Origin: Myxococcus sp. RHSTA-1-4
GTDB taxonomy: Bacteria > Myxococcota > Myxococcia > Myxococcales > Myxococcaceae
Assembly (NCBI RefSeq): GCF_020037125.1
Contig: NZ_JAIQDG010000041.1
Location: 1 to 64,000 of the forward strand
Length of the DNA stretch: 64,000 nt
Direction of reading: 5' to 3'
Shown here piece after piece: positions 52,783 to 55,814 of this stretch. Positions within the stretch are counted from its first letter, which is position 1; each line of letters starts with the position of its first letter. The notes beneath the pieces are model-generated. The model ran no database searches and was not told the origin of the DNA. It saw nothing but the letters and a program-made list of their open reading frames with translations. The translations under genes were made by a program, and so were the position numbers.

Positions 52783-53856
52783 TCAGGCGGGGGCCTTGAG
52801 CACCTGGGGCCACAGCTTCGCCAGCGCGGTGCGCAGCGCGGCGGCGTCGGGGTAGCGGTCCTCGGGCCGCTTCTCCAGCAGCTTCATGATGACGCGCTCG
52901 AAGGGCTCCGGCAGGTTCGGGCACAGGGTGCGCGGTGCCACCGGGGCCTGCTGCACGTGCAGGAACATCAGCGGCACCGGCTCCGCGTGGCGGAAGGGGA
53001 GCTGCCCGGTGAACAGCTCGTACGCCACCACGCCGAGCGCGTACAGGTCCGTGGCGGGGGACACCGGGGGGCTGCCCATCACCTGCTCGGGCGCCATGTA
53101 CTCCGGCGTGCCGAGCACCGCGCCCTGCGCCGTGGTGCCCGGCACGTGCATGCTCTTGGCGAGGCCGAAGTCCATCAGCTTCAGCACCCCGGTACGGGTG
53201 ATGAAGAGGTTGGCGGGCTTCACGTCCCGGTGCAGCACCCCGCGCCCGTGCGCGTGCTCCAGCGCCACGGTGGCGTGGGTGAGCCAGCGCAGGGCCTCGG
53301 TCCATGAGGGCCGCCGCTCCGCCAGCACCTGCCGCAGGTCCGAGCCCTCCAGCAGCTCCATGGTGAGGAAGTGGCGCTCGCCGTCGTCGCCCACGTCGAA
53401 GACGCGGAGGATGTTGACGTGCTCGAGCGCCCGCACGTGCTCCACCTCCTTGCGGAAGCGCGCCACCAGGTGCGCCTCCGCGTGGGGCACGGCCAGCACC
53501 TTGAGCGCCACGTGCTCGCCCTGCTGGAGGTCCGTGACTTCGTACACCGTGGAGCTGCCCCCGGCGCCCAGCCAGCGCTCCACGCGGTAGCGGCCCGCCA
53601 CCACCTGCCCCGGCACCAGCCCCCGCACCATCATGGAGAGCGGCAGCGGCGTCGTGAAGCCCTGGAGGAGCGTGCCCTGCGGCGACACCGGCGTGGCCGG
53701 CCGCAGCGTGTCCGCCAGCGACACCGCTGGCGGAGGCGTCACGGGCCGCAGGTCCGCGCCTGGAGGTGTCACCGGCGAGTATGGGGCGGGTACCGCTTCC
53801 GGCGCGGCCCCGCCCAGGTAGGCCACGTCGCCGGCATCATCGTCCGTCGGCTGCAC
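52783..53856 (-). CDS. Eukaryotic-type Ser/Thr protein kinase
   Basis: The 357-residue protein is a complete protein kinase after a Pro-rich N-terminal region (about 1-85). It has the glycine loop LGAGGSSTVYEV, catalytic Lys in VALKVLAV, catalytic loop GVLHRDVKPANLFITR, LMDFGLAKS (DFG) and GTPEYMAPEQ. There is no transmembrane helix or sensor domain, so it is a cytosolic Pkn-type kinase, common in myxobacteria. GTG 53856 has GAGGGAGGG upstream. It follows the diiron protein gene by 36 bp on the same strand, so the two probably form an operon and may share a signalling task. Confidence 0.92.
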   Translation of the reverse strand: MQPTDDDAGDVAYLGGAAPEAVPAPYSPVTPPGADLRPVTPPPAVSLADTLRPATPVSPQGTLLQGFTTPLPLSMMVRGLVPGQVVAGRYRVERWLGAGGSSTVYEVTDLQQGEHVALKVLAVPHAEAHLVARFRKEVEHVRALEHVNILRVFDVGDDGERHFLTMELLEGSDLRQVLAERRPSWTEALRWLTHATVALEHAHGRGVLHRDVKPANLFITRTGVLKLMDFGLAKSMHVPGTTAQGAVLGTPEYMAPEQVMGSPPVSPATDLYALGVVAYELFTGQLPFRHAEPVPLMFLHVQQAPVAPRTLCPNLPEPFERVIMKLLEKRPEDRYPDAAALRTALAKLWPQVLKAPA

Positions 53857-53892
53857 CAGCCCCTCCCTCGATTCGTGTGGGTGCGCCCCGGC

Positions 53893-55050
53893 TCACGGGT
53901 CCAGCAGTGAGACGTGGGACGGAGCCCCCGCGCCCTCGAGGTCCAGGTGCGGAGTGGGCAGGTTGTATTCGGCGGCGGCGCTGGTGGCCTCCACGATGAT
54001 GGGGCCGGCGATTTCGGGCGGCTCGCCGTGGCACAGCAGGGACACCACGTGCTCCAGCGTCCACTTGCCCAGCTTGTTCACGTGGAGGCTCTTGCCGTCG
54101 TACGTGGCCGTGTCCGAAAGCTCCTTGCTGGCCGCCAGCTTCGCGTCCACGGAGGCGCCCAGGTAGCCGCGCGCCAGCGACAGCACCCGGTCCAGCACCG
54201 CGTTCCAGGCCTGCAGGTGCGTGCGGTCCTGCGCCTCGTCCATGATGTCCAGGCCCACCTGCAGCCGCTCCATGCGCTCCAGGAACTGCTGCACCAGCGG
54301 GCCGCGGATGATGCGGCCGTGCTGCGGGGCAATCATCTCCACGCCCGGCTCCAGCTTGCGGATGGCCGCCACCGCGCGCGCCAGCGCCGCGTTCACCGGC
54401 ATGTAGATTTGGTGGAAGGCGCGGATGCCCGTCCAGTCGGACTCGTCCGCCCACAGCCCCTTCGCGTTGGAGTCGGTGAGGCCGCCGAAGAGGTCGCCGG
54501 AGAAGAGCACCCGCGTCTGCGGGTCATAGAGCATCACCGCGCCCCGGAAGTGGCAGAAGGGCGAGGGCACCGGCAACAGCTTGTGCCCGGTGGGCACGCT
54601 CAGCCCCTGGGCGAACTTCTCCGTGGGGATGAAGCGGTGGCGCGGCAGGTTCTGGTGGACGATGAGCCGCCACGTGTCCTCCGAGCAGAGGATGCCCGCT
54701 CGGGGCGCGTAGCGCGCGGAGATGAGGCTCGCCGACGAGCCCACGTCCGGGTCCTGGTGGTTGACGAACATGGCCGACAGGCGCTCCATGCCCCCGATGA
54801 GCGCGGTGACCTTGGTGTGCATGGCGGAGAAGTCGCTGCTGGAGCCCGGGTCGATGAGGAGGTTGAACTCCGTGGGCCGCTGCGTCTTCGTGTCCGTGCC
54901 GCGGAAGCGGCGCAGGTATGGGTTGGCGTAGAAGATGTTGCCGGGCTCTCGCTTGCCCACCCAGAACGTCTCGGGGGCAATCTCCACCGGAACCAGGCGG
55001 ATGTCGGAGCTCGGATTCAGGCTCGGAGAGGGGACGACGGTGCTGCTCAT
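53893..55050 (-). CDS. ODP (oxygen-binding diiron) family, MBL-fold protein
   Basis: The 385-residue protein has an N-terminal metallo-beta-lactamase-like fold of the flavodiiron/ODP type. The motif NHQDPDVGSS (about 97-106) replaces the hydrolase HxHxDH, as in oxygen-sensing ODP proteins and flavodiiron cores. Further ligands are SPFCHFRGAV and FSGDLFGG (Asp), and APQHGRII provides the last His. The C-terminal part (about 245-385) is helical and has no flavodoxin domain, so it is a sensor or oxygen-handling protein rather than a nitric oxide reductase. The Ser/Thr kinase encoded next may be its output. Two palindromic repeats precede it (55146-55189). Confidence 0.85.
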   Translation of the reverse strand: MSSTVVPSPSLNPSSDIRLVPVEIAPETFWVGKREPGNIFYANPYLRRFRGTDTKTQRPTEFNLLIDPGSSSDFSAMHTKVTALIGGMERLSAMFVNHQDPDVGSSASLISARYAPRAGILCSEDTWRLIVHQNLPRHRFIPTEKFAQGLSVPTGHKLLPVPSPFCHFRGAVMLYDPQTRVLFSGDLFGGLTDSNAKGLWADESDWTGIRAFHQIYMPVNAALARAVAAIRKLEPGVEMIAPQHGRIIRGPLVQQFLERMERLQVGLDIMDEAQDRTHLQAWNAVLDRVLSLARGYLGASVDAKLAASKELSDTATYDGKSLHVNKLGKWTLEHVVSLLCHGEPPEIAGPIIVEATSAAAEYNLPTPHLDLEGAGAPSHVSLLDP

Positions 55051-55145
55051 GATGTCGGCGTTCCTTCGCGCGGGGGAAAATTCCTACCCCAAGGCCCTAG
55101 CAATCCGTGCGCCGTCGGACAGTGCCCCGGCGGGCGAGCCTGTTC

Positions 55146-55189
55146 GCGCAGTTCTTGCGCCCCCGGGGAGGTGGGCGCAATTCGTGCGC
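55146..55189. promoter_or_regulatory. Paired palindromic repeats upstream of the ODP gene
   Basis: GCGCAGTTCTTGCGC (55146-55160) and GCGCAATTCGTGCGC (55175-55189) share the dyad GCGCA-N5-TGCGC and lie 29 bp apart. A further inverted repeat TTGCGCCC / GGGCGCAA (55155-55162, 55173-55180) links them. They are about 95-140 bp upstream of the ODP start and look like a two-site operator. Confidence 0.45.
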
Positions 55190-55195
55190 GGAGGG

Positions 55196-55498
55196 CTACT
55201 GCTCCAGCGGGGGCTGCAGCGTGCCGAACTGCTCGATGCCCTCGTCCACCGCTGAGCGCACCGCGTGCAGCACGGCGTCGTCGGTGAGTTGCCGCACCAG
55301 CACCAGGCGTGTGGCGAGCAGGGAGGGCGCCGCGGCCAGCCGCCGCTGCAGCACATGGAGTGGCACCAGGGTGAGGGTGAACCCACGGCCGTCGCGCAGT
55401 CGCACCACCACGTCCAGGCCGTCTCGTCGCGGCAGCGCCGGGTCATCCGCGACGAGGATGGAGGCCACCCTGGCATCTCCCGAGTCGATGGCGCGCAT
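55196..55498 (-). CDS. Small protein of unknown function
   Basis: The 100-residue protein starts MRAIDSGDARVASILVADDP and has alternating strands and helices with a VRLRDGRGFTLTLVPLHVLQ core. The ATG at 55498 has GGAGGAG close upstream, a strong reason to accept it over the 148-residue longer frame. It is 145 bp ahead of the ODP gene on the same strand. It is not recognised; a ligand-binding or regulatory role is possible. Confidence 0.65.
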   Translation of the reverse strand: MRAIDSGDARVASILVADDPALPRRDGLDVVVRLRDGRGFTLTLVPLHVLQRRLAAAPSLLATRLVLVRQLTDDAVLHAVRSAVDEGIEQFGTLQPPLEQ

Positions 55499-55814
55499 GT
55501 CTCCTCCGAGGTGAGGCGTGGCCACGCACGGGCCCACGGGGTCTTCATGCGTCCGCTCCTGGCGGGCAGGCAAGCCGACGCGAGGGCGGGCTGCTCGGGA
55601 GCGGACGACTGGCCCGCTCACACTCCGTCCGGAGTCACTCACTCCGGGTGAGGGGATGCCATGACACCAACATCACCGCCCGGCCCCTCCTGGCGCCGGA
55701 ACCACGAGGAGGCCCCTTCGCCTCCGAGAGGAAGGTGGGTGCCGGGCGCCCGGTGTGAAATCACCCCGGCCCCTCCTGGCGCGTGGCAAGCTCACCGCCC
55801 TTCTTCGTCCCTCC
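55499..55814. other. Intergenic region with a 17-bp direct repeat
   Basis: The stretch lies between divergent genes. CCGGCCCCTCCTGGCGC occurs at 55680-55696 and again at 55766-55782, 86 bp apart, and each copy is preceded by ATCACC. The second copy lies 33 bp before the membrane protein gene. No gene is supported. Confidence 0.5.

Follow-up and report, generated by a model that had tools for sequence, protein, structure and literature searches.

We analysed a 64,000-nt stretch of the genome of Myxococcus sp. RHSTA-1-4 (contig NZ_JAIQDG010000041.1, positions 1 to 64,000; in the following called the window), in which two neighbouring genes on the reverse strand encode a protein of the ODP (oxygen-binding diiron protein) family and a eukaryote-like Ser/Thr kinase. 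The ODP gene (53893..55050; 385 aa) is transcribed toward the kinase gene (52783..53856; 357 aa), with a gap of 36 bp between the ODP stop and the kinase start (53857..53892). Upstream of the ODP gene lie two exact copies of the palindrome GCGCA-N5-TGCGC, a distal site S1 (55175..55189) and a promoter-proximal site S2 (55146..55160), which were confirmed by a pattern scan and match a published consensus. An initial annotation of this DNA had pointed out an ODP-type protein with the motif NHQDPDVG and no flavodoxin domain, a cytosolic Pkn-type kinase 36 bp later and a two-site palindrome upstream, all of which proved correct. It had overlooked a sigma54-like promoter element and a C-terminal domain of the ODP protein, both described below.

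The first protein is a member of the ODP family, judged by its reading frame, its domain match and its nearest structural relatives, and Fe(II)/O2 binding is predicted. It matched Pfam ODP PF19583 with 166.2 bits (cut-off 27.2); a sub-threshold Lactamase_B match was the only other one in the Pfam scan, which detected no flavodoxin domain in the 385 aa. The nearest solved structures by sequence are ODPs (E-values of 3e-26 and 9e-25), with flavodiiron proteins ranking behind. The ODP domain, of the metallo-beta-lactamase fold, spans residues 63–245 by the Pfam coordinates (54316..54864, reverse strand) and contains NHQDPDVG at residues 97–104 (54739..54762, reverse strand). Its H98, D100 and D102 are presumed metal ligands from the alignment with HQDPDV of the PDB ODPs. 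With H167, D186, Q243 and H244, seven presumed ligands can be named; the same residues are aligned in both PDB ODPs, and the set expected for ODPs (HxDxD, H, D, QH) is complete. In the ODP of Thermotoga maritima (TmODP), a glutamine of motif 5 stands in for the third histidine of motif 2 (PMC7785958), and the window protein carries this glutamine as Q243 (APQHG).

Residues N97–V103 and the seven presumed ligands are invariant across nine ODP sequences with identities down to 40%, which were collected without a motif search (alignment A1). The seven are invariant as well in a second alignment (A2, 46 rows) of the window ODP and 45 of the 79 named loci introduced below; because these loci were found through patterns over residues 97–103 and 161–168, conservation in A2 is partly circular at these positions. 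Cys166, next to the ligand His167, is likewise invariant in A1 and, partly by construction, in A2; this position is Leu or Met in the two PDB ODP sequences.

A template-free AlphaFold2 model of the protein (mean predicted local distance difference test score, pLDDT, of 87) was aligned to PDB chains. TmODP came first of 999 (Z 30.7, 244 residues, root-mean-square deviation (rmsd) 2.6), and fold matches of this model to the chemotaxis ODP structures ranged from Z 27 to 31. Both the ligand residues and the predicted fold thus match ODPs that have been described as oxygen sensors, a role the initial annotation had considered. A C-terminal helical domain is predicted at residues 276–361 (53968..54225, reverse strand), with a block of pLDDT 86–95 at residues 281–360. 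It lies outside the region of the Pfam ODP hit and gave no Pfam match, and the PDB ODP chains (253 and 255 aa) stop short of it. Alignments of the whole-protein model with PqsE extend to approximately residue 336 (Z ~20, rmsd mostly 4.1–4.7), and we do not assign a fold to the domain from them.

The second gene encodes a Hanks-type Ser/Thr kinase (Pfam Pkinase, 170 bits) with the catalytic motifs VALK, HRDVKPAN and DFGLA, and it is predicted to be active. It has no membrane-like stretch, the highest 19-residue hydropathy mean being 1.06, and the Pfam scan found no sensor domain in the kinase itself. Among the seven window proteins scanned at 50.3–58.2 kb there was no chemoreceptor, placing the ODP outside the chemotaxis-ODP subgroup, nor was a flavodoxin or rubredoxin domain found in these seven (Pfam).

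To follow the pair through relatives, we turned to 63 other genomes in which the ODP is matched over its full length at no less than 78% identity, and took 56 loci (L031–L086), leaving out seven genomes, all from group g6. The kinase gene lies directly downstream of the ODP gene in 55 of 55 evaluable loci; the contig of the 56th (L034) ends at the downstream side of the ODP gene. The fetched loci represent about eight genus groups and are hence not independent. Searches for 12 other window neighbours showed that 27 of the 56 loci have kept none of them within approximately 9 kb, apart from an acyl-CoA-ligase paralogue, 27% identical, in L078; three of the 27 offer less than 15 kb of sequence. 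As the kinase stays where the other neighbours are lost, the ODP and kinase genes form a unit that survived rearrangement. The pair is therefore conserved in other genomes, and the lack of a conserved linkage, which the initial annotation had allowed for, is refuted. Across the order, ODP matches are present in 80 of 145 genomes. The more distant ones (L087–L102) have no adjoining kinase, and five of the 77 region loci (L103–L107) were dropped as they showed no ODP at an E-value of 1e-8.

A scan of named genomes with the patterns NHQDPDV[GSA] and VP[ST]PFCHF, from which the best 80 of 132 relatives were kept, yielded 79 loci. In 25 of these the kinase gene follows downstream (many are genomes already counted among the fetched loci), one ends with its contig, 19 encode kinase and ODP within a single open frame, and 34 show neither arrangement. 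One locus with the Myxococcus-type arrangement and neighbours (L133, BNCN01000002.1) is titled Comamonas sp. KCTC 72670 and is probably a mislabelled record.

The 19 single-frame loci belong to other Myxococcota and to one metagenome-assembled genome (MAG) of the Acidobacteria; the carriers include four Polyangium records, the complete genome of Minicystis rosea, Lujinxingia vulgaris and several Myxococcota MAGs. Six of the 19 frames were checked by Pfam, and Pkinase and ODP were present in all six. The columns of the catalytic Lys, the HRD Asp and the DFG Asp are invariant in all 19 fused kinases. The kinase forms the N-terminal part of the fusions, and its gene lies downstream in the Myxococcaceae. 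A structure prediction for a fused protein gave both domains mostly with confidence, joined by a low-confidence linker, and a predicted template modelling score (pTM) of 0.49; we therefore claim no interface between kinase and ODP.

A quick tree built from 77 kinase domains unites the operon kinases in a single group (100, starred). The fused kinases sit in other groups; for these, starred branches force a minimum of two label changes, and the best tree needs four. The ODP tree likewise unites the operon ODPs (97, starred) and requires three or more changes for the fused ones. The simplest reading of the trees is that this ODP type probably recruited kinases more than once; the number of fusion origins is uncertain, the trees being quick ones. 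The idea that the window kinase split off from a fused form is unsupported, as the operon kinases form a group of their own and match fused kinases no better (112–150 bits among the matches listed) than other kinases (up to 174 bits).

The palindromic sites can be related to a known regulon. In M. xanthus the NmpU-NmpS relay ends in NmpR, an NtrC-like activator that binds GCGCA-N5-TGCGC; its sites are usually paired, with 14–15 bp between them, and lie upstream of sigma54 promoters (PMC11841059). McAllister et al. 2025 reported that hypoxia induces one target gene and that this induction depends on NmpR (PMC11841059). The window sites S1 and S2 are separated by 14 bp, and 48 bp before the ODP ATG we detected a sigma54-like -24/-12 element, CGGCGCACGGATTGCT (GG-N10-GC; 55099..55114, reverse strand), matching 9 of 12 scored consensus positions. 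The window contains three single-site matches (0.66 expected), a number reached in 1 of 100 shuffles. Over the whole 11.24-Mb genome, a looser two-site pattern occurred at 12 places and its reversed control at none, and the core spacer was 16–18 bp at all 12, though 10–22 bp were permitted. In 27 genomes of the genus, this pattern had 2–12 matches compared to 0–3 for the reversed control; the control was equal or higher in three of them (G111, G116, G119), and the two-site pattern alone is therefore not specific in every genome.

A full element is here a pair of GCA-N5-TGC dyads together with a suitably spaced sigma54-like element, upstream of the ODP gene. Within the genus it is present at 24 of 27 loci, and contig ends account for two of the three without it; in group g3 all six loci have it. 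Among 18,684 random control stretches of the same loci, the pair alone occurred 17 times, the combination never, and a sigma54-like element scoring 8 or more 5,524 times. Such an element is thus common and by itself not specific, whereas its combination with two sites is uncommon.

The other 11 two-site places of the genome lie beside genes for the CBS protein of the nmp locus, a second CBS protein, a USP, two hemerythrin-domain proteins (one ScdA_N-hemerythrin), an S30AE ribosome-hibernation protein, YwiC, an acetyl-CoA hydrolase-GNAT protein and FtsH; one gene had no Pfam match, and L125 is ambiguous. The adjacent gene was chosen by judgement where both strands carry reading frames, and a sigma54-like element (8 or more) stands on the chosen side at all of these places except the USP gene. 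Among these candidate sites (L118–L128), those before the S30AE, ScdA_N-hemerythrin, YwiC, acetyl-CoA hydrolase-GNAT and FtsH genes mark a DosR-like set, which is not named in the consulted part of the M. xanthus regulon text (PMC11841059).

The nmp system itself is present in this genome: at C54 lie a CBS gene and NmpR-, NmpS-, NmpT- and NmpU-like genes in the published order. In M. xanthus, mxan_1578 is named as an NmpR regulon gene, with no description of the product in the portion of the article available (PMC11841059), and MXAN_1576 encodes a major facilitator transporter (PMC4509775). A contig of M. xanthus AM003 (L132) has the order ODP, kinase, major facilitator transporter; therefore, MXAN_1578 is probably the ODP and MXAN_1577 the kinase. 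This contig begins 120 bp before the ODP gene, so one of the two sites is visible. MXAN1579 has been placed in a non-ribosomal-peptide gene cluster (PMC7910581), which the neighbours seen here neither explain nor exclude, and a literature search on MXAN_1574 to 1580 yielded no description of an ODP–kinase pair. A different connection was found in a Myxococcales MAG (L153:3490-7668), where a gene for a protoglobin histidine kinase, 39% identical over 376 aa to NmpU of this genome, lies 74 bp behind an ODP gene whose product is 68% identical; a receiver gene and a receiver-histidine kinase gene resembling NmpS come next. What ties the ODP to the heme-based oxygen relay is thus the type of promoter in some lineages and the location of the genes in that of L153.

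Taken as sequence evidence, the conserved linkage, the fusions and the match to the published low-oxygen NmpR enhancer support the suggestion, first made in the initial annotation, that the pair may be an oxygen-responsive phosphorylation system. Most likely, O2 or iron gates the Ser/Thr kinase of this module, which, by its promoter, would be hypoxia-induced in this genus. We assign a probability of roughly 0.6 to the specific reading that both genes constitute one operon for a sensor-kinase module, in which a hypoxia-induced ODP gates the kinase on O2 or iron. As oxygen falls, phosphorylated NmpR on the two sites seen in the DNA would drive sigma54 RNA polymerase at the -24/-12 element and, if NmpR is the regulator, ODP and kinase would be made in hypoxia. 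From its ligands and fold, the ODP is expected to load iron at low oxygen and could then capture O2 that returns or is left over, in the form of a di-iron peroxo species, which is what chemotaxis ODPs are reported to do. The resulting change in the ODP may alter the activity of the partner kinase, as the fusions and conserved operons suggest, with the C-terminal helical domain as the probable relay. The kinase would in turn phosphorylate candidate target proteins that adjust the response, making the module a second oxygen-sensing tier beneath the heme-based NmpU sensor.

Several observations weigh against this reading. An adjacent or fused kinase is missing from 34 of the 79 named loci, and the kinase could act on the ODP instead of the ODP on the kinase. 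The naming of MXAN_1578 and MXAN_1577 rests on gene order. The full promoter element occurs at one of eight g8/g9 loci and at none of the loci in g6 (0/9), g7 (0/4), g5 (0/2) and g20 (0/1). Four of the six g3 loci have their sites 17 bp apart, a spacing seen only in an unbound promoter (PMC11841059). Among 22 genomes with both tests, the full element is found at the ODP gene in 6 of 17 NmpU-positive and 0 of 5 NmpU-negative genomes; the NmpU matches in g5 are 48–49% identical and may not be orthologues. Several genomes that lack the element have NmpU, and NmpR control is therefore not essential to the pair. Given its absence from g5, g6, g7, g20 and seven of the eight g8/g9 loci, we rejected a universal NmpR link.

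Among the alternative explanations, the one that survives best keeps the ODP as the input domain of the kinase and replaces O2 by Fe(II), NO or reactive oxygen species as the signal. NO reductases are among the related di-iron sequence matches, the title of the 2019 ODP study names a sensor for Fe(II) and oxygen, and the Cys166 invariant in A1, where PDB ODPs have Leu or Met, could add a redox or NO response beside His167. The promoter in this genus, however, is of the low-oxygen NmpR type, and the literature ascribes oxygen binding to ODPs. We infer that O2 rather than Fe(II) or NO is the signal and regard a non-O2 signal as unlikely, at about one chance in four.

It is considerably less plausible that the ODP is a hypoxia-induced catalyst removing O2 or NO, which the kinase regulates or with which it is merely co-expressed. 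The fold is that of the flavodiiron reductases (Z about 25–29) and the promoter of the hypoxia-regulon type, but the absence of flavodoxin and rubredoxin domains from the seven scanned proteins speaks against catalysis, and the existence of ODPs fused with kinases or with a receiver domain favours signalling. Equally improbable in our view is an ODP that is a substrate of the kinase, its phosphorylation tuning a sensor that acts on something else. Neither operon nor fusion by itself reveals which partner controls the other, and elsewhere ODPs act on chemoreceptors; yet this ODP type occurs with varied outputs (kinase, receiver, neighbouring GGDEF), the usual pattern of an input domain. Chance neighbourhood, for which the abundance of kinases might be invoked (154 Pkinase matches in 11.24 Mb, an estimated one gene in 60 at some 9,000 genes), is hardly credible and was rejected, as adjacency in 55 of 55 loci, with synteny otherwise lost in 27, and the 19 fusions already contradict it.

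A gated sensor-kinase module may extend beyond this genus. In Myxococcota and at least one Acidobacteria MAG, there is about an even chance that a di-iron ODP module which binds O2 and has its own C-terminal helical domain gates a class of Ser/Thr kinases, the two being made as a single polypeptide or encoded by an operon pair, and that this class forms a second oxygen tier under NmpU-NmpR in Myxococcus and probably Archangium. Myxobacteria possess very many eukaryote-like Ser/Thr kinases, and to our knowledge the input signal of most of them is not known. The pair offers a candidate input, O2 or Fe at the di-iron site, for a conserved kinase of this type. If true, eukaryote-like kinases would have a defined gas-type input, and two oxygen-sensing chemistries, heme in the NmpU protoglobin and di-iron in the ODP, would be joined in one cascade. 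The family is testable in M. xanthus DK1622, for which NmpR strains exist (PMC11841059).

Comparison with known systems places the pair between several of them. The closest known ODPs act in chemotaxis in Treponema denticola and T. maritima (PDB 6qnm, 6r9n, 6qrq, 6qwo; PMC7666581, PMC6978683, PMC7319448, PMC7785958). The window protein shares with these the ODP domain, the presumed ligand residues, the lack of a flavodoxin domain and the predicted fold (Z 27–31). It differs from them in having a Ser/Thr kinase instead of a chemoreceptor as neighbour, an extra C-terminal helical domain and a Cys beside the ligand His. Its kinase resembles other cytosolic Hanks-type (Pkn) kinases of myxobacteria in catalytic domain and motifs, unlike which it has a candidate sensor in the neighbouring, and in relatives fused, ODP. 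With flavodiiron proteins and flavorubredoxin, the window ODP shares the metallo-beta-lactamase di-iron fold and, by prediction, control by a sigma54 activator, norV being controlled by the sigma54 activator NorR. It lacks their flavodoxin module and reaches 34 bits against the NCBIfam cut-off of 711. The primary study of the chemotaxis ODPs is reportedly that of Muok et al. 2019. Common to the window and the oxygen-utilisation regulon NmpRSTU of M. xanthus are the exact two-site enhancer, the 14-bp gap and a sigma54-like element; that regulon names MXAN_1578, the probable orthologue, and gene order adds the link to ODP and kinase here (PMC11841059).

The 2019 ODP study had already found ODPs in signal-transduction operons and fused to signalling domains, and the general idea is therefore known (PMC7319448). 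A literature search, narrow in wording, found no description of an ODP–kinase link, which the 2019 study may list among its fusions. New here are the conserved operon of ODP and Ser/Thr kinase, the C-terminal domain, fusions in which kinase residues are conserved, the promoter of NmpR type and the nmp-like neighbourhood; the literature searched gave no account of them.

Between the VTT gene and the ODP gene of the window lies a small reading frame of ~100 aa (55196-55501, reverse strand) without a match in Pfam or NCBIfam; only some related loci have one. In g6 (Corallococcus-type; L065, L067, L073–L079), the region upstream of the ODP gene differs, with GAGAAGCGGCGCTCATGCC and GGCTGGTAGG recurring in several loci.

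Other partners of this ODP type were sought in 24 of the 34 loci with neither kinase arrangement, covering the ODP's own chain or some neighbours; L153 with its Nmp-like genes, described above, is one of these. We found a REC-DUF4388-ODP fusion in L193 and a GAF-GGDEF gene 24 bp downstream of the ODP gene in L186. Upstream of the ODP gene there is a response-regulator gene in L187, L191 and L200, in an adjacency that is not constant, and a USP gene in L203. HEAT repeats scored above the cut-off on the N-terminal side of the ODP in three Fermentibacterota MAGs (L194, L195, L206). In the remaining scanned loci of this kind, no signalling partner was found in the chains and neighbours covered. 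Within the same order, short ODPs of ~250 aa lie directly behind Roadblock/LC7 genes in three of eight tested cases (L094, L098, L099), hinting at a partner of the small-GTPase type. A MAG labelled Acidimicrobiia (UBA2766; L159:4903-10408) carries a tandem array of four ODP genes.

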